From contig PBSL01000055.1 in NCBI GenBank assembly GCA_002726205.1, positions 1 through 34,885 of the forward strand: a stretch of DNA of 34,885 bases, read 5' to 3'. This document shows positions 2,338 to 18,673 of this stretch, in pieces. Source of the DNA: Planctomycetaceae bacterium. Lineage in GTDB: Bacteria > Planctomycetota > Planctomycetia > Planctomycetales > Planctomycetaceae. The position numbers and the translations under genes are program-made. Every line of letters starts with the position of its first letter. Positions within the stretch are counted from its first letter, which is position 1. The notes beneath the pieces are model-generated. The model saw only the letters and a list, made by a program, of their open reading frames with translations, was not told the DNA's origin and did no database searches.

Positions 2338-3384
2338 TTACTGCCCGGTCCAGTAATCGAACACCAGCACGTCGTCCAGGCGGGGACCGACCAGCTTGAC
2401 GAATTCCTGGTGGGCCGGGTGAGGCAGGTAAGTGTCGCGGCCCTTCTCGTCACGGAAGGTCACCACGAAACCGTGCGTGAGCCCCTTGTGCTTGTTCTCG
2501 ACACTGACGTCAATCCCGTGCTCGAACCCCACGATCACCTCGATCTTCTGAGGCAGTGCCGCGAACGCCCGCACCACCTCCTGCACCTGTTTCTCGCTGA
2601 CCTCGGGCTTGAACTTGAAAAGCACCACGTGTCGCAGTCGCCGCGATCCGGTACCGGAAACACCCAGCGCGTCGAGCATCCGCGCGGCGACAAAACGGTT
2701 GCCGGCAGCATTCAGGTGCACGCCGTCGGTCGTCAGCACCTTCGATCCGGCCGCCAGCGGGTTGTGGCGTCGCAGGTAGTCGAGAAACTCGCGGTTGAGA
2801 TCCAGTAGCTGCACACCGGTCCGGGCAGCCACCCCCCGGGAGATGGCCGCGTACTCGGCGAGCATCTTGTCGAGACGATTGGAACCGTCGGGCTTCTCGC
2901 CGATCACGCTGGGCGTACAGAGGATGACCCGGGCACCGGCCTTTTCGATCCGGGTGATCAAGCGGCCAAGTCCCGCCTCGAAATCGGGCTTCGACGTGCC
3001 CTTCTTCTGCAACGAGTGCCACACGTCGTTGATGCCGATATAGATCACGACCACCTGCGGCTTGTGGGCCAGCACGTCGCGATCAAGCCGTTTCTCGAGA
3101 TCGGGCACCTTGTGCCCACTGATCCCGGCACCGATCACCTTCAGCTCCAGCTTCGCGTGACGTGTCTCGAGAAACTCGCGAACGACCCGGATGTAACCAC
3201 CGGGCTGTTCTCCGGCCTGGGTGATCGAATCACCCAGGAAAACGATCCGGTCACCTTTTTTCAGCTTCGCATCGGCCGCCACGGCCGGGTTGACCACCAG
3301 GGCCACGCTGGCCAGCAACACGGCAAGCGAAGCAAACGGCGGAAACGCATCACGCACGAGTGTGGAGAGAGTCGGCGACATCAT
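2338..3384 (-). CDS. Secreted SGNH/GDSL esterase fused to C-terminal Dabb domain
   Basis: A 348-residue protein of two domains. After a hydrophobic signal segment (about residues 12-36, ending in an AxA-like site), residues 45-240 form an SGNH hydrolase. Its blocks are 'FLGDSIT' (nucleophile S53), 'GAGISG' near 85-90, 'GIND' at 117-120 (oxyanion Asn119) and 'DGVH' at 220-223 (catalytic Asp/His). Members of this family deacetylate sugars or cleave other small esters. Residues 248-348 match the stress-responsive A/B barrel (Dabb, ferredoxin-like dimeric barrel): 'RHVVLFKFKPEVSE' opens it and 'HPAHQEFVKLV' follows near the end. The start is the first of two adjacent ATG codons (3384/3381), and both give the same signal peptide. 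The frame is open to 3780 but overlaps the upstream gene without similarity. It lies 64 bp downstream of the tandem hydrolase gene and is probably co-transcribed. Confidence 0.88.
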   Translation of the reverse strand: MMSPTLSTLVRDAFPPFASLAVLLASVALVVNPAVAADAKLKKGDRIVFLGDSITQAGEQPGGYIRVVREFLETRHAKLELKVIGAGISGHKVPDLEKRLDRDVLAHKPQVVVIYIGINDVWHSLQKKGTSKPDFEAGLGRLITRIEKAGARVILCTPSVIGEKPDGSNRLDKMLAEYAAISRGVAARTGVQLLDLNREFLDYLRRHNPLAAGSKVLTTDGVHLNAAGNRFVAARMLDALGVSGTGSRRLRHVVLFKFKPEVSEKQVQEVVRAFAALPQKIEVIVGFEHGIDVSVENKHKGLTHGFVVTFRDEKGRDTYLPHPAHQEFVKLVGPRLDDVLVFDYWTGQ

Positions 3385-3448: not shown

Positions 3449-5650
3449 CTACTGTCCCAGCAGCCAGGGGACCGCGGCCCCGATGGCTTTCTGTTCCGAG
3501 CCTGCCGTCGAAACAACGTACTTGGGCCGTTTCGTTGCCGTGTAAGCGGCCTGGACGCGCTCGGGCACCGAACCCTTTTCCCCCGCCAGCCACAACGGCA
3601 GCGGTGCGGCCAGCGAGAGCAGGCCGGGAAGATCCCCGTACTTGACGGCACCGGGCAGGAACATCGGATCGCGGTAACTCTTGACGTTGACGAAGCGAAA
3701 TCCGCCGGTGGCGACGACGGCCTTGTCGACCAGGTCCTGGGCCACGACGCGGGCGGCAGCCACCAGGGGTCCGGCACCACCGGTCCCGACCAGTGCCACC
3801 GCGCCGGCCCGATCCTCCTCGTGCCCCTTGACGAAGGTCAACAGCGTCAGGATGTCGTGAACGCGACTGGCGAAGACACTGTGGTTGTAACCGAACGTGT
3901 AAGCGGCAAACTCGCGGTTGTTGCCGACTTTCGGCGTGACCGTCAACGGCTGGCCTTTTTCCAGGAACTCACCCTGGTACAGCAGGTCACCGCCGAGCAC
4001 GGCGGCACCACCGTCAAGCAGACGACGGATCGCCGGTCGCGGTGTCCCGTCACCGGCGTACAGGCCATCCTTGCCGCGACCATCAACCCAGACAACGGCC
4101 AGGCCGTTGAAACGGGTCTTCTTGGGAAAGAACGAGACGACCGGCAGTTCCTCGTTGCGGGTCGTCACCCGCAGGATGTCGGTGAATTCCAGGTAATCAC
4201 CGCGATCGTGTTCGGCCACCTTCGTCCGCTGGATCTCGTTGGACCGGGGCAGCCCCCGTCCAATGATCGTCTGCACGGCTCCGCCAACGATACCCTGGTA
4301 GATCGTCATGTCCTCGCGTCGCACCGGCACCAGCGAGGCAACCTGGGCTTGTGACTGCCGCGCAAGGAAGCGGGTCACGGATTTCTCGTGCTTTTCACCT
4401 CCCGGCGGCGAGGGGTGCTGCTTGTCCCAGACCGTGTACTCCTGCTTGGTCAGTGGCTCGTAGTCGGTCTCGATGACCGGCTCCTTCAACCCCAGCCCGA
4501 GATGTCGATTGAAGAGGTTGTACATGATGCCACGGCTCACGTAGTTGTAGTTGTGAGGAAACTGGACCAGCGAGCGGCAGAGAACGTGGTCTCGCTTGCC
4601 GTAGAGCCCGTAGAGCTGGCGAAGTTGCGGGTACCCCTTGGTCATCATCTCCTTGGTCCAGTCATTCGCCGCGGTCATGCCCTGGGGTTTCGGGGCAAAC
4701 AGCGCGGCCAGTTCAACGTTGCCGGTCCCGATTCTCAGCAGGCAACAGTTCTCGCAGGTGCAACCACCCTGCATCGATGTCGAGACCATGCCGTTGGGAA
4801 AGGCGACAACCGGCCGCGGGTCTATGGCACACAGCAGGATCGTCTGCGTGCCCCCACCGCTGCCGCCGGTGACACCGATCCGCTTCGGATCGACATCGGG
4901 CAACCCGGCCAGGAAGTCCAGGCAACGGATCGAGCTCCACGTCTGCAGGCCCATGATGCTCTGCAGCCGCAGCTCCGCCTGGGTACTGATGAACCCCCAG
5001 CCCTCGGGGCTGTTCATGTGGGGCCGCTGTTTCTGCAGGCGATGAGCGACCTGCATCCCGAGTTGCTGGCTGTCGGCATAGCCTTCCATATCGAAGATGA
5101 AGGTGACACACCCCATCCGTGCCAACTGGGCACAGCGGGCCAGCTTCGGGAACCGTCCGGATTTCCTGAACTTCTCGCCACCGCTTTTGATCAGGGCATC
5201 CATCTTCCCTTCGCCGTAATCCTGCAATCGGCCACCGTGGCCGTGAGGGCAGAGGACAGCCGGATGGCGACCCTTGCCGGCGGATTTCGCCGGCCGGTAC
5301 AGCAACCCGGTGATGAAGTGGCCCGGCAGGCTCTCGAAGTACACCTTCTCGACGCTGAATCCCGGTCGGTTGACCTTGCCGAAGATGACCGGCCTGAGCG
5401 GCGTCCGCTGGGGCATCGGCCAGAGACCGGTGGAAACCAGGATCCGTCGCCTCAGTTCCCGCGCCCGGGCTTCCCAGGCCTTTTTCGTTGCCGGGACCGT
5501 GAAGGGGAAATAGGCATTGAGGTCTTTTTGCGGGCCCAGTCGCGCGTCGTTGGGTCGTTTGCCTTCGGGCAACACCCGGGGACTGTTGGCCGGGCAGGTT
5601 GAAACCAGCAGCAGGGTGACGGCGACGGACAGGATAAGTCGGGTGCGCAT
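3449..5650 (-). CDS. Secreted tandem alpha/beta hydrolase (acetyl xylan esterase-like)
   Basis: A 733-residue protein with a signal peptide (residues 1-22, hydrophobic 'LILSVAVTLLLVSTC'). The first half is an alpha/beta hydrolase resembling the acetyl xylan esterase/dienelactone hydrolase group. It has an oxyanion strand 'VLCPHGHGG' (132-140), a nucleophile elbow 'GGSGG' with S264, a Cys cluster 'GGCTCENCC' (295-303) and a likely catalytic His366 ('FPHNYNY'). The second half (about 440-733) looks like a second alpha/beta hydrolase unit in which the elbow position reads 'GTGGAG', with no serine, so it may be non-catalytic. The exact substrate is unknown; esterase activity on acetylated glycans is inferred. 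The start is the ATG at 5650, with GGAG 9-12 bases upstream; the frame is open to 5710, but those residues precede the signal peptide. It is the middle gene of a probable three-gene unit (102 bp after the upstream gene, 64 bp before the SGNH gene). Confidence 0.82.
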   Translation of the reverse strand: MRTRLILSVAVTLLLVSTCPANSPRVLPEGKRPNDARLGPQKDLNAYFPFTVPATKKAWEARARELRRRILVSTGLWPMPQRTPLRPVIFGKVNRPGFSVEKVYFESLPGHFITGLLYRPAKSAGKGRHPAVLCPHGHGGRLQDYGEGKMDALIKSGGEKFRKSGRFPKLARCAQLARMGCVTFIFDMEGYADSQQLGMQVAHRLQKQRPHMNSPEGWGFISTQAELRLQSIMGLQTWSSIRCLDFLAGLPDVDPKRIGVTGGSGGGTQTILLCAIDPRPVVAFPNGMVSTSMQGGCTCENCCLLRIGTGNVELAALFAPKPQGMTAANDWTKEMMTKGYPQLRQLYGLYGKRDHVLCRSLVQFPHNYNYVSRGIMYNLFNRHLGLGLKEPVIETDYEPLTKQEYTVWDKQHPSPPGGEKHEKSVTRFLARQSQAQVASLVPVRREDMTIYQGIVGGAVQTIIGRGLPRSNEIQRTKVAEHDRGDYLEFTDILRVTTRNEELPVVSFFPKKTRFNGLAVVWVDGRGKDGLYAGDGTPRPAIRRLLDGGAAVLGGDLLYQGEFLEKGQPLTVTPKVGNNREFAAYTFGYNHSVFASRVHDILTLLTFVKGHEEDRAGAVALVGTGGAGPLVAAARVVAQDLVDKAVVATGGFRFVNVKSYRDPMFLPGAVKYGDLPGLLSLAAPLPLWLAGEKGSVPERVQAAYTATKRPKYVVSTAGSEQKAIGAAVPWLLGQ

Positions 5651-5752
5651 CGGGGTGTCTCCGGAAGGGGCAGCCTCCGTCAGGGTACCCGGCGGCTGGC
5701 AATCTCGCAAAGCGGTGGGGCGGGGCGGGGATTCGATCCCGATTCGTCGTCC

Positions 5753-7774
5753 CTATCGACGAACCCGCCACTTCTCGTCGAAGAAGCCGGCAGCGGTGAT
5801 CTTGCCCGGCCACTGCGTTCCCGGCGGCGTGGTCAGGTCCACGATGGCCCAGTCGGGCAGCATCGGCACCTGCCGGGCGTTGTTCAGGTAGGCGTACTCG
5901 CGGTAGGTGAAACTGCTGTTGAGCACCACGTAGCGACTGTTGTTGAGCGGGTTCGGGTAGATCATCACCGGCATGTGATGACTGGCGTCAAAACCCTTCT
6001 CGGTAACGTGAAGTTGCCCCTCGCCCCACGTCAGCGGCAGGCGGTCAACGACTCTTGCCAGCAGCTTGTTGCTCTGCGGGTCGCCCCACAACACCAGGTT
6101 GGCCCCCTTGATGTCCTCGTCGGTCACCTCGGTGTCCTTCTTCACCCGGGCATGCCCGCGGAACTGCTTTCGCCAGTGGACAATCGCACGTTTGAGTTCC
6201 GACTGGACCCACTCGCCGGTCTTCTCGTTCAACGGTTTTCCGGTCGGACGAACAAAGAGGAACGAGTCCATGAAGGCATCGTCGATGGGGCCCTGCAGGT
6301 CGTGTCGCTTTCTCAGGCCAGCACCGTGACCGCCTGCACGTCCTCCGACCCGCCAGCCGTCTTTCCGTTTCGTCAGCCGACAGAACCAGGAGCGGTCCGA
6401 GCGTGGCCGCGGTGCGGCCAGTTCCTGTCCATCCACGACGACGGTCACCTGCCGGAGAATGTCAAACGGCGAGTGCCCCGAGGAAAACGAGAACTTCATG
6501 CCGGTGATGTTCTTCGTCGAGAGTTCCAGCCGCGACCGGCCGACCACGTCGGCGGTCACCCGCGCCCGTGACCAGTGCTCACCCAGGCCCTCGATTGTCA
6601 GCCAGTGCATGCGATTGTATTTCAACGTCCAGGTCGCCAGTTCCACGTGCAGCGGGTACGACTCGCGACCACGCCGTCCCAGGTTCTGCAGCCGTCGATC
6701 GATCTCGATCTTCGAATCCGGATGGATCCGGTGCTTGGTCTCCGGACCGATCACGTGAACCATGTCGATGCCCTCGGCCTCGAGCGCCGCTTCCATGATA
6801 TCGGCCGCCTGCTTCTGGATGTCCAGTTCGCCGCTGTAGGCCACCGTCGGGCAGTGGTAGAGGTTGATCGCCCAGTCGGTGCAGTCGTACCAGTGCCAGA
6901 GTTTCTTCTCGTACCAGGTCGGGTTGAGCGTTTCCTTCTGGAAGAACTTCAGGAACTCCGGCGTTTCGGAGAACCCGGCACCCGGGTTCGCGGCGAACCA
7001 GCGGTCGGCGTAATGGACGGCGAATTGCCAGCAGGCGGCACCACCCATCGAGAAACCCCGGACCGAGGTCCGGCGAGAATCGACCTGGTACTTCTGCTTC
7101 ACGTCCTCCCAGCTCTCCAGCACATCGACCTCGCCGGCAAACTTGAAAGCGTTGGAATAGCGTCCGTAGGGGTGCAGCACGATCGTCTGTCGCGGCGTGT
7201 ACGCACCGGCGTTGCGAGCCCGCTGGTGGACGAAATTGACCTCGCTGAGGGTCTCGCCACGGCCATGGAACCAGATGTCCAGACGGTGACGACGGCCCGA
7301 GTTGAAGTTGTAGCTCTCGGGGATCACCAGCCCGTAGGGCTGCACGGTCCGGTCGATCCGGGAAACGTATCCCCGGACCACCAGCCCGCGTTGCCGTGTC
7401 CAGGGTGCCTTTCCCGCGGCCAGTTGCGTGGCCCTTGCCTGGCCGATCCCCAGCAGGTCATGGCCTTTCTTGATGTCACCTGGAGAAAAAAACTCGTTGT
7501 AGGCCAGGGCGTCGGCGACGGCCCGATGGTAGATCTCGATGTCGGGCAGCAGTTCCCGAACCGCGGGGGTTTTCGATGCGGCCAACTTGTCGAGTTGTCC
7601 GCGGAGTTGTTTCAGCCCGGCCTCCAGGGCTGCCCGATCCTCGTCTGGAACCTCGACACCCACGCGAGGCACCGGGCGAACCGATTTCGGGTCGTTGTCG
7701 CCGAGCCCGTCAGCCAGCACGGCGGTGGTGGTCAGCAACAGGATCAGGACGGGCAGTACGCGCTTGATCGTCAT
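5753..7774 (-). CDS. Secreted alpha/beta hydrolase, prolyl-oligopeptidase-like
   Basis: A 673-residue protein with a clear signal peptide (MTIKRVLPVLILLLTTTAVLA). An N-terminal helical region (about 40-125) is followed by an alpha/beta hydrolase core. Visible elements are the oxyanion region 'WFHGRGE' (168-174), the nucleophile elbow 'GFSMGG' (240-245, S242), an acidic candidate D318 in 'GELDIQ', and H348 in 'PETKH', giving a plausible Ser-Asp-His triad. The C-terminal 300 residues form a beta-rich extension with a conserved-looking 'GPIDDAFMDSFLFVRPTG' stretch. This architecture is known from planctomycete proteins annotated as prolyl oligopeptidase family or putative esterase, and no substrate is established. 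The start is the ATG at 7774, preceded by a GAGAGAA purine run. It is probably the first gene of the minus-strand hydrolase unit that continues to 2338. Confidence 0.82.
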   Translation of the reverse strand: MTIKRVLPVLILLLTTTAVLADGLGDNDPKSVRPVPRVGVEVPDEDRAALEAGLKQLRGQLDKLAASKTPAVRELLPDIEIYHRAVADALAYNEFFSPGDIKKGHDLLGIGQARATQLAAGKAPWTRQRGLVVRGYVSRIDRTVQPYGLVIPESYNFNSGRRHRLDIWFHGRGETLSEVNFVHQRARNAGAYTPRQTIVLHPYGRYSNAFKFAGEVDVLESWEDVKQKYQVDSRRTSVRGFSMGGAACWQFAVHYADRWFAANPGAGFSETPEFLKFFQKETLNPTWYEKKLWHWYDCTDWAINLYHCPTVAYSGELDIQKQAADIMEAALEAEGIDMVHVIGPETKHRIHPDSKIEIDRRLQNLGRRGRESYPLHVELATWTLKYNRMHWLTIEGLGEHWSRARVTADVVGRSRLELSTKNITGMKFSFSSGHSPFDILRQVTVVVDGQELAAPRPRSDRSWFCRLTKRKDGWRVGGRAGGHGAGLRKRHDLQGPIDDAFMDSFLFVRPTGKPLNEKTGEWVQSELKRAIVHWRKQFRGHARVKKDTEVTDEDIKGANLVLWGDPQSNKLLARVVDRLPLTWGEGQLHVTEKGFDASHHMPVMIYPNPLNNSRYVVLNSSFTYREYAYLNNARQVPMLPDWAIVDLTTPPGTQWPGKITAAGFFDEKWRVRR

Positions 7775-8068: not shown

Positions 8069-8155
8069 AGATGGTGGTTTCACCGGCGAACGGCTTGATG
8101 TCGATCGATGACAATGGTCGAACCGGGTCCGGCCCTTCTGACAGGATGCTGCTCC

Positions 8156-9592
8156 ATGTCGATGCATGACCACAACTGCGGCTGTCCCCAACACGGATTT
8201 TCCCGCCGTCAGCTGCTGCAGGCCGGATCGGCGGGCATGGTGGGGCTGGGAGCGACCGGGCTGTCGCCCCTGCCGGCTGTCGCCGCGCCGCTTTCGAAGG
8301 CCAAGCGGGTGCTGTTTGTCTTTCTGACAGGCGGAATTTCGCACCACGACACGTTCGACATGAAGCCCGCTGCTCCGGTAAAGGTGCGTGGCGAGTTCGA
8401 CCCGGTCTCGACCGACGTCCCGGGAATCCAGATCGGCGAGCACCTGCCGATGTTCACCAAGCGGATGAAGCACTACGCGGTCGTCCGGTCAATGGGTACC
8501 GGAAGCAACGGTCACGAACAGGCCTGCCACATGATGCTGACCGGTCGGCTGGATTTTCCTCCTGCCTTCAGCACCCGCCAGGTCCCCAGTCCCAACGAGT
8601 GGCCGTCGATGCTCTCGGTTGTGACCTATGCCAAGCGCAACGAGCAACGCAACCTGCCACCCTCGGCGGTGCTGCCCGAACCCAGCGTGAACGAGGCAGC
8701 ACGGGTCCGGCCCGGCCAGTACGCCGGCCGCCTGGGGGCCTCTTACGAGACCTGGCACGTCAATGTCGCCGCACAATGCCCGCTGGGCAACGGGGCCTGC
8801 CCCGACTGTTTCCGCTTTGATCTCGACTCGTTTGACCACGCCACCAGTACGATTTTCAACACGCCGGAGCTCACGCTGCCCAGGGGAGGCCGTAATCGTC
8901 TGCAGAACCGGATCGGGTTGCTGGGGACAGTCGAGCAACAGCGGGTGGATCTGCAGAAACGAGCCGCCGGCCGCAAGCTTGAACAGAGCCGTCGGCAGGC
9001 GATCACCGTGCTGGCCGACCCCAAGACCAGCCAGGCCTTCGACGTCGAAAACGCCGACCCGAAGCTGATCGAACGCTACGGCAAGAACAAGTTCGGCCTC
9101 TCGGCACTGATGGGTTACCGGTTGCTCGACGCGGGTGTTGATTTCGTCCAGGTCAACCTGGGCAAGAACTCGTCCTGGGACACTCACCGTCGCAATTTCG
9201 TGAACCTCAAGCGAAACCTGCTGCCGCCATTCGACCGGTCGATGAGCGCCCTGGTCGATGACCTGGCCGACAGCGGGCTGCTTGATGAAACCCTCTTCGT
9301 CATCAGTGGCGAGTTCGGTCGCACGCCGAACATCAACAAGAACTCGGGCCGTGACCACTGGGGACCGGTGTTCACCGCACTGTTTGCCGGCGGCGGTGTC
9401 CAGGGCGGACAGGTGATCGGCCAGTCCGATGACCTGGGAGCCTACTCGGTCAGCCAGCGGTACATGCCCGAGAACTTCTCGGCGACGATCTACGACGCGC
9501 TGGGGATTCCCCGCGACGATCACTGGACCGACTTAGACAGGCGTGTCCACGAGATCTACCGCGGGCAGCCGATCTCGGCGTTGTACGGCTAA
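8156..9592 (+). CDS. DUF1501 domain-containing Tat-exported protein (copy 2, Cys-rich)
   Basis: A 478-residue DUF1501 protein. The N-terminus is unusual: a His/Cys-rich segment (MSMHDHNCGCPQHGF) comes directly before the twin-arginine motif 'SRRQLLQAG' (RR 17-18), then a Gly/Ala-rich hydrophobic stretch ending 'PAVAAP'. DUF1501 hallmarks follow: 'TGGISHHDTFDMKP', 'SWDTHRRN', 'GEFGRTPNINKNSGRDHWG'. A second Cys cluster, 'CPLGNGACPDC', lies in the middle of the protein and is absent from the other copies here. Activity is unknown. The family is placed in the alkaline phosphatase superfamily, and Tat export suggests folding or cofactor loading before transport (inference). ATG 8156 is chosen, with AGGATG upstream; ATG 8162 and 8108 are alternatives. 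It is followed, after 160 bp, by the RraA-like gene on the same strand. Confidence 0.88.
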   Translation: MSMHDHNCGCPQHGFSRRQLLQAGSAGMVGLGATGLSPLPAVAAPLSKAKRVLFVFLTGGISHHDTFDMKPAAPVKVRGEFDPVSTDVPGIQIGEHLPMFTKRMKHYAVVRSMGTGSNGHEQACHMMLTGRLDFPPAFSTRQVPSPNEWPSMLSVVTYAKRNEQRNLPPSAVLPEPSVNEAARVRPGQYAGRLGASYETWHVNVAAQCPLGNGACPDCFRFDLDSFDHATSTIFNTPELTLPRGGRNRLQNRIGLLGTVEQQRVDLQKRAAGRKLEQSRRQAITVLADPKTSQAFDVENADPKLIERYGKNKFGLSALMGYRLLDAGVDFVQVNLGKNSSWDTHRRNFVNLKRNLLPPFDRSMSALVDDLADSGLLDETLFVISGEFGRTPNINKNSGRDHWGPVFTALFAGGGVQGGQVIGQSDDLGAYSVSQRYMPENFSATIYDALGIPRDDHWTDLDRRVHEIYRGQPISALYG

Positions 9593-15817: not shown

Positions 15818-17215
15818 ATGCTGAGCGTGTACGACGGGCACAGCCGTTACGGGCGGCGTGACTTCCTGAAGATCGGCAGCCTCGGGCTTGGTGGGTTGAC
15901 ACTCGCCGACCTGCTCGCCGGTCGCGAGGCCGCCGCGGCCTCGTCGGGACAATCCGTCCACGACAAGGCCGTGATTTTCCTGTTCATGCACGGTGGGCCG
16001 TCGCAGGTCGAGACCTTCGATCCGAAAATGACGGCTCCCTCGGGAATTCGCAGTGCGACCGGTGAGATCAAGACGAAGATCCCCGGGATCACCTACGGAT
16101 CCACGTTCGAGAAGCTTGCCGCGTTGAACGATCGCACGACCGTGGTCCGATCGTTCGTGACCGGTGACGGCCGCCACGACATCAAGCCGGTGGTCGGCAA
16201 GGATACCCTGGGAGCCAACCTCGGCTCGATCTATTCCCGCATCGTCGGCCAGAACAATCCCGATAACGGGATGCCGTCCAACGTGCTGCTGTTGCCACGC
16301 TCGGTTGACGAGAGCACGATGCCGGGAGTCACGCAGTTCGGCAAGTTCGATTCGACCGGAACCGTCGGCTCGGCCTACCGGCCCTTCACTCCCAGTGGCG
16401 GTGGCGATCTCAAGGCCGACATGAAACTGACGCTGCCGATGGGACGGCTGACCGATCGCCGTGGCCTGTTGACCCGGCTGGATCGGCTGAAGCGTTCATT
16501 CGACGGCAACGGACGTCGCGAGAGTCTTGATCGGCTTCGCGAGCAGGCCTTCGACACGATCCTCGGTGGCGTGGCCGAAGCGTTCGACCTGTCCAAGGAA
16601 TCTCCAGGAACCGTGGCCCGGTACGACACCAGTGGCCTGGCCCCCGAGGCGGGGACCGACAAGCGTTGGAACAACCGCAAGCGGTACGCCGACAACGGCA
16701 AGACGCTGGGCAAGTTGCTGCTGTTGGCGCGGCGATTGGTCGAGCGGGGCTGCGGATTCGTGACGGTTACGACCAACTTCGTCTGGGACATGCATGCCGA
16801 CGTGAACAACGCCGACGTGATCACCGGCATGAACTACATGGGCAGGCCGTTCGATCACGCCGTCTCGGCATTCCTCGAGGATGTTCACGACCGCGGTCTC
16901 GACGACAAGATCCTGCTGGTCTGCTGCGGCGAGATGGGACGCACGCCGCGGATCAACAAGAAGGGCGGTCGCGATCACTGGGGCAACATCGCCCCGTTGC
17001 TGCTGGCCGGCGGTGGACTGGAGATGGGCCAGGTCATCGGGCAATCGACCCGGGACGTCTCGCGGCCGCTGACGACCCCGAATCACAACAGCAACCTGAT
17101 CGCGACCATCTGGCACACGTTGTTCGATGTCGGCGGGGTGCGGATCAACCAGTCGGTTCCCCGCGATATTGCCCGCGCGATGGAGAATTACCAGCCGATC
17201 CCCGGGCTGCTGTGA
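15818..17215 (+). CDS. DUF1501 domain-containing Tat-exported protein (copy 3)
   Basis: A 465-residue protein with Tat motif 'GRRDFLKIG' (RR at 13-14) and the hydrophobic stretch 'SLGLGGLTLADLLA'. DUF1501 motifs: 'MHGGPSQVETFDPKM', 'FVWDMHAD', 'GEMGRTPRINKKGGRDHWG'. It is the closest relative in the window to copy 1. They share an 'LDDRRGLLTGLD'-like segment ('LTDRRGLLTRLD' here), an 'RPF.PS.GG' motif and a proline-containing C-terminus, so the two are probable paralogues. The function is unknown; the family is alkaline phosphatase-like. GGTGGAG lies about 10 bases before the ATG. It ends 24 bp from the stop of the convergent DUF1501 copy 4, so two DUF1501 genes of different subtype face each other here. 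Confidence 0.9.
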   Translation: MLSVYDGHSRYGRRDFLKIGSLGLGGLTLADLLAGREAAAASSGQSVHDKAVIFLFMHGGPSQVETFDPKMTAPSGIRSATGEIKTKIPGITYGSTFEKLAALNDRTTVVRSFVTGDGRHDIKPVVGKDTLGANLGSIYSRIVGQNNPDNGMPSNVLLLPRSVDESTMPGVTQFGKFDSTGTVGSAYRPFTPSGGGDLKADMKLTLPMGRLTDRRGLLTRLDRLKRSFDGNGRRESLDRLREQAFDTILGGVAEAFDLSKESPGTVARYDTSGLAPEAGTDKRWNNRKRYADNGKTLGKLLLLARRLVERGCGFVTVTTNFVWDMHADVNNADVITGMNYMGRPFDHAVSAFLEDVHDRGLDDKILLVCCGEMGRTPRINKKGGRDHWGNIAPLLLAGGGLEMGQVIGQSTRDVSRPLTTPNHNSNLIATIWHTLFDVGGVRINQSVPRDIARAMENYQPIPGLL

Positions 17216-17239: not shown

Positions 17240-18673
17240 TCACGCCAGGAGATCGTCGATCACCAGCGCATCCTCGACCCCGGTCAGTCGCTGCTCCAAC
17301 CCCTGGTGACTGTAGGTCAGTTCCAGGTGATCCAGCCCCAGGCAATGGAGAATCGTGGCGTTGAGATCGTTGACGTGGACCGGTTTCTCGACCACGTTGT
17401 AGCAGAAGTCGTCGGTCCGACCGTATTCGATGCCGCCACGGATCCCGCCGCCGGCCATCCACAGGCTGAAACAGCGGCCATGATGGTCCCGGCCGTAGTT
17501 GCCGCCAGACACCTTTCCCTGGGCGTAGACGGTCCGGCCAAACTCGCCGCCCCAGACAACCAGTGTCTCGTCGAGCATTCCGCGACGCTTCAGGTCCTTG
17601 ACGAGCGCCGCGGCCGGCTGATCAGTATCACGACACTGACCACGAAGTTGCGCCGGCAGGTTCCCGTGCTGGTCCCAGCCCCGGTGGAACAACTGGATGA
17701 ATCGCACCCCCCGCTCGGCCAATCGGCGGGCCAGCAGGCAGTTGGCGGCAAACGTTCCGGGCTGGCCCACGTTGGGACCGTAACGCTGTAACGTCCCGGC
17801 TGTTTCGCCGGAGATATCCATCAGCGACGGCACCGAGGCCTGCATGCGGAAGGCCATTTCGTACTGGGCGATTCGCGTGTCGATCTCCGGATCACCGACC
17901 CTGCGGGCCCTCAACCGGTTGAGCCTGGCCAGTCCATCAAGCATCTTGCGGCGGCCGCCACGATCAATCCCGGGCGGATCGCCCAGGTACAGGACCGGGT
18001 CACGCCCACTGCGAAAGCGAACACCCTGGTGCCGTGACGGCAGGAACCCGCTGCTCCAGAGCCGCGAGAACAACGGCTGGCCTCCGGGCCGGCCGGTCCC
18101 CTGCGAGATCAAGACGACGTAGGCGGGCAGGTCACGACTCTCGCTGCCCAGCCCGTAACTCAGCCACGATCCCAGGCTGGGCTTGCCCAGTTGCTGGCTG
18201 CCGGTGTTGATCAGCGTGATCGCCGGATCGTGATTGATCGCTTCGGTCGTCATGGACTTGACCAGACAGATCTCGTCGGCAATCGAACCGGTGTGTGGCA
18301 GCAGTTCACTCAGCGGCCGGCCACAGGCGCCATGTCGTGGGAAACCGAACACGGTACTGACGCAGGGAAAGCTCTTTTGCTTGTGCGTCATCTCGGTCAA
18401 CCGCTGCCCGGCCCGCACCGAATCGGGCAGCTCCCGGCCCGCGTGACGAGCCAGTGCGGGCTTGTGGTCGAAGAGATCGATGTGCGAGGGGGCTCCGGAC
18501 TGGAACAGGTAGATCACCCGCTTGGCCCGGGCCGGGAAATGCGAACCCGCCGCGGGGGGGTGTTCGGCTCGCAACAACGAGGCCAGCGCCACCGAACCCA
18601 ACCCACCGGCGACCTGTCCGAACAGGCCCCGTCGATCCACTCGCTTCGGGCTGGTTGATCCTGTAGCGGTCAA
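17240..18673 (-). CDS. DUF1501 domain-containing protein (copy 4, partner of DUF1553), TTG start
   Basis: A 477-residue DUF1501 protein of the subtype usually encoded directly downstream of DUF1549/DUF1553 genes in planctomycetes (family knowledge). The N-terminus has '[22 protein letters not shown]', with RR at 14-15, as a Tat-like signal. Family motifs: '[17 protein letters not shown]', 'RGWDQHGN', '[13 protein letters not shown]', '[17 protein letters not shown]'. The start codon is TTG (18673-18671). No ATG or GTG places the signal correctly, and GGGAG at the very end of the upstream gene lies about 8 bases before the TTG, so translation is probably coupled. The gap to the upstream stop codon is 5 bp. 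It is the last gene of the five-gene minus-strand unit and is convergent with copy 3. Confidence 0.9.

Follow-up and report, generated by a model that had tools for sequence, protein, structure and literature searches.

What does a Dabb barrel do at the C-terminus of an apparently exported esterase? We addressed this question for a gene in a window of 34,885 nucleotides (the whole stretch of DNA analysed) from a Planctomycetaceae bacterium. A preliminary description of this DNA had recognised an SGNH esterase followed at once by a Dabb domain. Both domains are known, and their architecture appears to be new. An SGNH–Dabb fusion is described in no title or abstract opening among the listed open-licence PubMed Central papers.

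The fused gene and its relatives

The gene is a single open reading frame that runs on the minus strand from an ATG at position 3384 to a stop codon ending at 2338, with no internal stop codons. It consists of the following parts.

2338–3384, minus strand: SGNH–Dabb fusion gene, 348 amino acids plus stop; a single ORF with two Pfam domains far above their cut-offs
3271–3384, minus strand: N-terminal leader, residues 1–38; a probable Sec signal peptide with hydrophobic FASLAVLLASVALVV and an AVA-A-like end
2665–3258, minus strand: SGNH esterase domain, residues 43–240, with S53, G87/G90, N119, D220 and H223 (Pfam, alignment, model)
2638–2664, minus strand: variable linker, residues 241–249 (alignment of 59 fused sequences)
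2347–2637, minus strand: Dabb domain, residues 250–346, with H252, H304, Y319 and H325, and also H322, E296 and D343

Using hmmscan against Pfam, we obtained significant matches for PF13472 (SGNH hydrolase) at residues 49–230 (98.8 bits against a cut-off of 32.9; E 6.9e-28) and for PF07876 (Dabb) at residues 250–345 (100.3 bits against a cut-off of 25; E 9.9e-29). The proposal of one protein with a complete SGNH domain and a complete Dabb domain was thus borne out, and the worry that residues 248–348 might give no significant Dabb match fell away. The residues S53, N119 and D220/H223 lie where the preliminary description had placed them and are invariant in all 59 aligned fusions (the window protein plus 58 of the 80 loci described below, down to 49% identity).

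The leader has a pLDDT below 50 in the structure model. It is probably a Sec signal peptide that is cleaved at the AVA-A-like end. Leaders were scored on the Kyte–Doolittle hydropathy scale, and a hydrophobic N-terminal 12-mer (mean of at least 1.8) was present in 68 of the 71 fused sequences with a readable N-terminus. The linker stretch, counted from residue 238 to just before residue 252, varies from 10 to 37 residues across the 59 fused sequences. The model of the fusion protein is that of a monomer with a pTM of 0.69, and the placement of the two halves relative to each other is hence a predicted one.

To follow the architecture into other genomes, we scanned genome contigs and analysed the best 80 of 142 matching loci. 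Both domains were found in one uninterrupted ORF at 78 of these 80 loci, and we therefore rejected a frameshift or assembly artefact, including the idea that re-sequencing might separate two genes. The ranking favours full-length matches, so that the figure speaks for the reality of the fusion and not for its frequency. The other two loci among the best 80 of 142 were L111, which has the SGNH domain only, and L112, which leaves its contig at query residue 266; among the 78 fused loci, a contig end cuts the Dabb domain in L106 and the SGNH domain in L109. All but one of the best 80 of 142 records (79/80) were titled planctomycetes, the remaining one (L038) being titled only 'bacterium'. Against the three nearest relatives, dN/dS was 0.12–0.18 for the SGNH half and 0.08–0.12 for the Dabb half, values that indicate purifying selection on each.

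Of 392 genomes sampled evenly across the phylum, 144 gave some match at 1e-10, and at least three of the 392 (G000, G353 and G257) contained, among the matches listed, a single match covering both domains in full. The fusion was found in 19 further genomes of the class, which brings the count to at least 22 of 297 class genomes, based on Dabb matches with long open frames among the matches listed. Many of these genomes come from the same assemblies as best-80 records, and the counts are not additive. None of the plasmid records covered 80% of the fusion query; 52 of them gave partial matches.

The esterase domain and the Dabb pocket

The nearest solved structure to the SGNH half is AlAXEase from Arcticibacterium luteifluviistationis (PDB 7ddy; phmmer E 2.4e-47, 43% identity over the SGNH domain, Foldseek TMt 0.95). 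The SGNH model aligned with 7ddy_B over 199 residues with an rmsd of 1.2 Å (Z 32.8). The two have in common the SGNH fold, the triad, the oxyanion residues and, in the alignment, the GDSITQAG, NDVWH, IGEK and D-x-x-H blocks. In contrast to the window protein, the matched AlAXEase chain of 230 residues has no Dabb domain, and the likeness between them is one of sequence and model. Further structural matches were 3rjt (an Alicyclobacillus lipolytic protein), the acetylxylan esterase Axe2 and LAE5. G87 and G90 are invariant in all 59 aligned fused sequences, as are S53, N119, D220 and H223; we take G90 to be the glycine of SGNH block II, by analogy with TesA. The NCBIfam equivalogs scored far under their cut-offs: AxeA1 (NF042968) 29.3 of 700 bits, TesA-type 26.8 of 270 and PatB 16.1 of 580. 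AlAXEase is counted among the known acetyl xylan esterases in an excerpt of PMC9105624. The window protein is an exported-looking SGNH esterase that most likely acts on O-acetyl groups on carbohydrate, and its sequence and relatives argue strongly for both esterase function and export.

A comparable case of an SGNH esterase with an added domain is provided by the CE20 esterases, in which an ancillary β-sandwich domain shapes the SGNH active site (excerpt of PMC12313940); that domain is inserted, whereas the Dabb domain is C-terminal here. Relatives of the window's SGNH domain that lack a Dabb domain carry other partners. An SGNH domain of the same subfamily is followed by a C-terminal glutathione peroxidase (PF00255, 154.9 bits) at L006:997–2208 (minus strand), and an SGNH relative is fused to SASA in L007. 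A single ORF at L008:4–2478 (minus strand) joins the SGNH domain to a 3-keto-disaccharide hydrolase (PF06439) and ThuA. At L010:472–2142 (plus strand), Pfam identified an N-terminal α/β hydrolase before the SGNH domain, that is, a double esterase, and the ORFs of L011–L020 and L022 were judged similar to it by eye from their sequences.

The Dabb is a small barrel that is known above all from enzymes of plants. For the Dabb half, the nearest solved chains were At3g17210 (E 2.4e-19) and olivetolic acid cyclase, OAC (best E 1.3e-12), and the fold matched 1q4r and 7w6d equally well (TMt 0.86 and rmsd 1.4 for each). SP1 and At3g17210 are close folds, and the matches include, by their PDB titles, OAC and Passiflora hydroxynitrile lyase. 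The structure-match list for the whole fused model was filled by the SGNH half and was uninformative on the Dabb. At3g17210 (PDB 1q4r), which is presumably HS1 (AtHS1), has the most similar sequence of all solved Dabbs (42% identity, rmsd 1.4) but is a plant protein standing alone. Antifungal and ribonuclease activity of AtHS1 is reported in an excerpt of PMC11171964.

The comparison with OAC (PDB 5b08 and 7w6d; 32% identity) concerns the pocket. In a gap-free alignment, H252, H304, Y319 and H325 correspond to OAC H5, H57, Y72 and H78. Residue numbers of the OAC chain in this alignment are higher than the native ones by three, as judged from the 104 residues of the chain; we assume that native OAC has 101. 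The mapping agrees with the six-residue Tyr–His spacing and with the mutants H5Q, Y72F and H78S named in PDB titles. According to excerpts of PMC7962319 and PMC8156804, OAC is a homodimer in which Tyr72/His78 are proposed to act as an acid/base pair. OAC is a stand-alone plant enzyme of polyketide synthesis and the window Dabb a bacterial domain, apparently exported as part of an esterase chain; the two are likened by residues, not by pocket shape.

H252, H304, Y319 and H325 are invariant in the 59 aligned fusions, and so are H322 and E296. The same four residues were present across 145 distinct Dabb stretches wherever these were long enough (83 fused, 34 single, 24 tandem halves and 4 SASA-linked, some genomes contributing more than one); in one fused row, gaps begin at residue 319. 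Since all the Dabb architectures compared share the four residues, their presence is a sign of a working Dabb pocket as such rather than of OAC chemistry. The residues that most strongly distinguish fused from other Dabbs are G333, L331 and R335. We infer with moderate confidence that the Dabb of the fusion protein keeps a live small-ligand pocket, and the barrel is probably a working one rather than a mere handle, as its active-site residues are kept. The genome contains one other Dabb (C21, 41 bits), whose frame showed no obvious leader by eye.

Whether the Dabb could also pair the esterase was approached through tandem Dabbs. A tandem model built from 12 sequences (pLDDT 86.9, pTM 0.79) matched two natural single-chain two-domain barrels, 2pgc_B (Z 17.0, 192 residues, rmsd 3.4) and 3mcs_A (Z 16.9, 200 residues, rmsd 3.6), at 8–10% identity, and a sulfur oxygenase reductase with Z 15.2. 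Since tandem Dabbs of the same subfamily are modelled as one two-domain barrel, pairing of single Dabbs, the fused one included, appears likely. That the fused Dabb dimerises the esterase may be suggested with moderate confidence from these models. The preliminary description had offered dimerisation or a small-ligand site as possible roles of the Dabb; this idea gains support from the tandem-barrel models and from the invariant OAC-equivalent residues.

Exported-looking Dabbs, gene neighbourhoods and fusion history

It had been thought surprising that a signal peptide would place a Dabb outside the cytoplasm. This view did not hold. Some Dabb, exported or not, was found in 285 of 297 class genomes (E 0.001), and a hydrophobic signal-like leader was present in 54 of the 58 distinct single Dabbs of the subfamily in which 20 or more residues lie ahead of the domain. 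All 14 two-Dabb chains (12 tandem and two SASA-linked) likewise had a signal-like hydrophobic stretch. The leader test was a crude Kyte–Doolittle one on better-matching loci. Judged by these leaders, exported-looking Dabbs, alone or in tandem, are common in this class, and the unusual part of the fusion is its esterase partner, not its location. Tandem Dabb–Dabb proteins with signal or lipoprotein-like leaders were seen in L122 and L183–L193. In the Dabb tree, the N and C copies of tandem Dabbs each form one starred group, and the duplication therefore looks old.

The SASA-linked chains are the following.

L123:4529–6643, minus strand: Dabb–Dabb–SASA chain with signal-like leader, genome G064, 705 amino acids; PF07876 twice plus PF03629
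L182:623–2764, minus strand: Dabb–Dabb–SASA chain with signal-like leader, genome G320, 714 amino acids; PF07876 twice plus PF03629

In the 392-genome sample, a match over the whole chain was found only in G064 and G320; 15 other genomes of the 392 had a best match with E below 1e-60 that starts only at residue 232. Pfam describes SASA (PF03629) as a carbohydrate esterase. By domain content, this chain is a second joining of an exported-looking Dabb to a carbohydrate-esterase family. It resembles the window protein in combining a signal-like leader, Dabb domains and a carbohydrate-esterase family in one chain, but differs in having two N-terminal Dabbs and SASA, and its hosts belong to other families of the phylum.

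Did Dabb and SGNH meet once or repeatedly? The Dabb tree comprised 108 rows and 100 columns, the best-80 fused rows having been reduced to roughly one in three. On this tree, nine changes of the fused label are required, of which starred branches force only one, and 46 of 105 inner branches are open. The long SASA-linked rows meet in the tree, which calls for a long-branch warning. A single group of all fused rows was not rejected (p-AU 0.196, after removal of six long rows), nor was a group of the fused plus the SASA-linked rows (p-AU 0.094, after removal of five long rows). As the AU test rejects neither grouping, independence of the SASA fusion would rest on domain order, copy number, esterase family and a starred long-branch split. 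In the SGNH tree (69 rows), the fused label needs six changes and starred branches force two. Two of its 23 'nonfused' rows are not true ones. The L112 row is cut by the contig end. The L043 row has an end branch of nine changes per column; since the fused ORF of L043 is intact, we took this 'nonfused' ORF for a wrong frame. The two trees fit one fusion event or several alike.

Two hydrolase genes lie upstream of the fusion.

3449–5710, minus strand: weakly AXE1-like α/β hydrolase, directly upstream (24.5 bits, cut-off 21)
5753–7774, minus strand: Peptidase_S9-like α/β hydrolase, next upstream (Pfam)

From this arrangement, co-transcription of the three hydrolase genes is possible. Among fused loci, the BLAST cluster of the AXE1-like gene adjoins the fusion only in the nearest relatives L033–L035, and the L033 copy had no Pfam match at 1e-5. 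The other window genes scanned (DUF1501, PSCyt2/PSD1, sulfatase, PQQ_2, DPPIV-type peptidase and BBP2 porin) are familiar planctomycete material. Four DUF1501-type genes lie in the 35-kb window, at 466–2310, 8108–9592 and 15818–17215 on the plus strand and at 17240–18673 on the minus strand; they form one BLAST cluster, and Pfam identified three of them.

We found no conserved operon: in a gene-cluster view of the best-80 loci and the window, no neighbourhood was widely shared, the gene caller having failed to place the fused gene in 13 of 78 rows. The operon analysis covered 99 fused, 61 single and 14 tandem loci (two SASA-linked ones being counted as tandem), with repeats from the same genomes and duplicates (L240 of L204, L241 of L177). 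We then tallied the families of immediate neighbours of at least 150 amino acids. Sulfatases accounted for 5 of 89 near fused genes and 4 of 100 near single Dabbs; they were absent from the 25 families listed for 100 distant control genes, which corresponds to a count of 0 or 1. The fused tally was drawn from 119 neighbours (nine fell to a length cap and 21, mostly near-copies, were removed by hand, including five genes of L091, L092, L100 and L101 whose copy status was assumed), the single-Dabb tally from 102 (two neighbours of the duplicate L240 were dropped) and the control tally from 146 distant genes. These raw counts amount to a weak excess of sulfatases near Dabb genes. A sulfatase, an exported-looking single Dabb and an AXE1-like hydrolase are consecutive on one strand at L118:4551–8685 (plus strand) and at L119:3873–8093 (minus strand). 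These same-strand runs come from two genera and are suggestive, being two cases only. On the whole, gene neighbourhoods help little in assigning a function.

Proposed mechanism, alternatives and meaning

The reading that we favour, and to which we give about an even chance, is that of an exported O-acetylesterase of carbohydrate type, to which the C-terminal Dabb adds both dimerisation and a second small-ligand pocket. Judged from the sequence and from relatives, the leader would export the protein. The SGNH domain would then hydrolyse the ester of an O-acyl group, most likely acetyl, by nucleophilic attack of Ser53, with Asp220–His223 completing the triad. Gly90 (or Gly87) and Asn119 would form the oxyanion hole; these residues are in place, and the chemistry is that expected from the SGNH family and AlAXEase. 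Two Dabbs would pair into one α+β barrel, as their fold and the tandem Dabbs suggest, to yield a homodimer with two esterase sites. The acid/base pocket, for which Tyr319/His325, His252 and His304 are all present, may bind the esterase product or some substituent on the substrate, or act chemically on either.

The Dabb might go further and be a second catalytic domain of a bifunctional enzyme, acting on the esterase-freed product by lyase, isomerase or cyclase acid/base chemistry with the two sites working in sequence. We regard this as unlikely. The counterparts of OAC H5, H57 and the Tyr/His pair are invariant, OAC and the Passiflora hydroxynitrile lyase are among the solved Dabb-fold matches, and an exported-looking Dabb has been joined to two esterase families. 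Yet the pocket residues are equally conserved across Dabbs of every architecture compared, the differing linker length does not suggest a fixed channel, and a Pfam scan of 14 window genes revealed no polyketide synthase. A more definite form of the idea, an exported two-step enzyme in which deacylation by the SGNH domain is followed by acid/base chemistry of the Dabb on the product set free, through an intact OAC-type Tyr/His pocket, is a little more doubtful still.

At the other extreme, the Dabb could be a structural handle only, which dimerises or stabilises the exported esterase and keeps its pocket residues for fold stability. OAC is a homodimer, according to an excerpt of PMC7962319, tandem Dabbs model as one two-domain barrel, and SP1 and At3g17210 are close folds, all of which would suit such a role. 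Strict retention of the four pocket residues together with H322 and E296 in 59 of 59 sequences would, however, go beyond the need of a dimer interface, and we hold a pure handle to be as unlikely as the bifunctional enzyme. The close SGNH relatives carry quite different partners, and the Dabb therefore need not be required for esterase action. The range of those partners (glutathione peroxidase, SASA, α/β hydrolase, and 3-keto-disaccharide hydrolase with ThuA) could even mean that the fusion is an unremarkable product of chance or drift in a lineage where this SGNH domain is readily fused, and that its two domains are not functionally coupled. Such an origin is very improbable: the fusion is kept at 78 of the best 80 of 142 loci, in aligned sequences down to 49% identity, and purifying selection acts on both halves.

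We found no description of a role for the exported-looking planctomycete Dabbs. The fusion gives these proteins, common as they are in the class, a testable partner and thus a lead on function: acylated carbohydrates are indicated by the SGNH half as well as by the separate joining to SASA. Should the Dabb pocket be active, OAC-type chemistry would extend to an exported bacterial setting, and the fusion would be a ready-made one for engineering. If the exported two-step reading is true, the exported single and tandem Dabbs would be a new extracytoplasmic set of enzymes tied to the breakdown of acylated carbohydrates.
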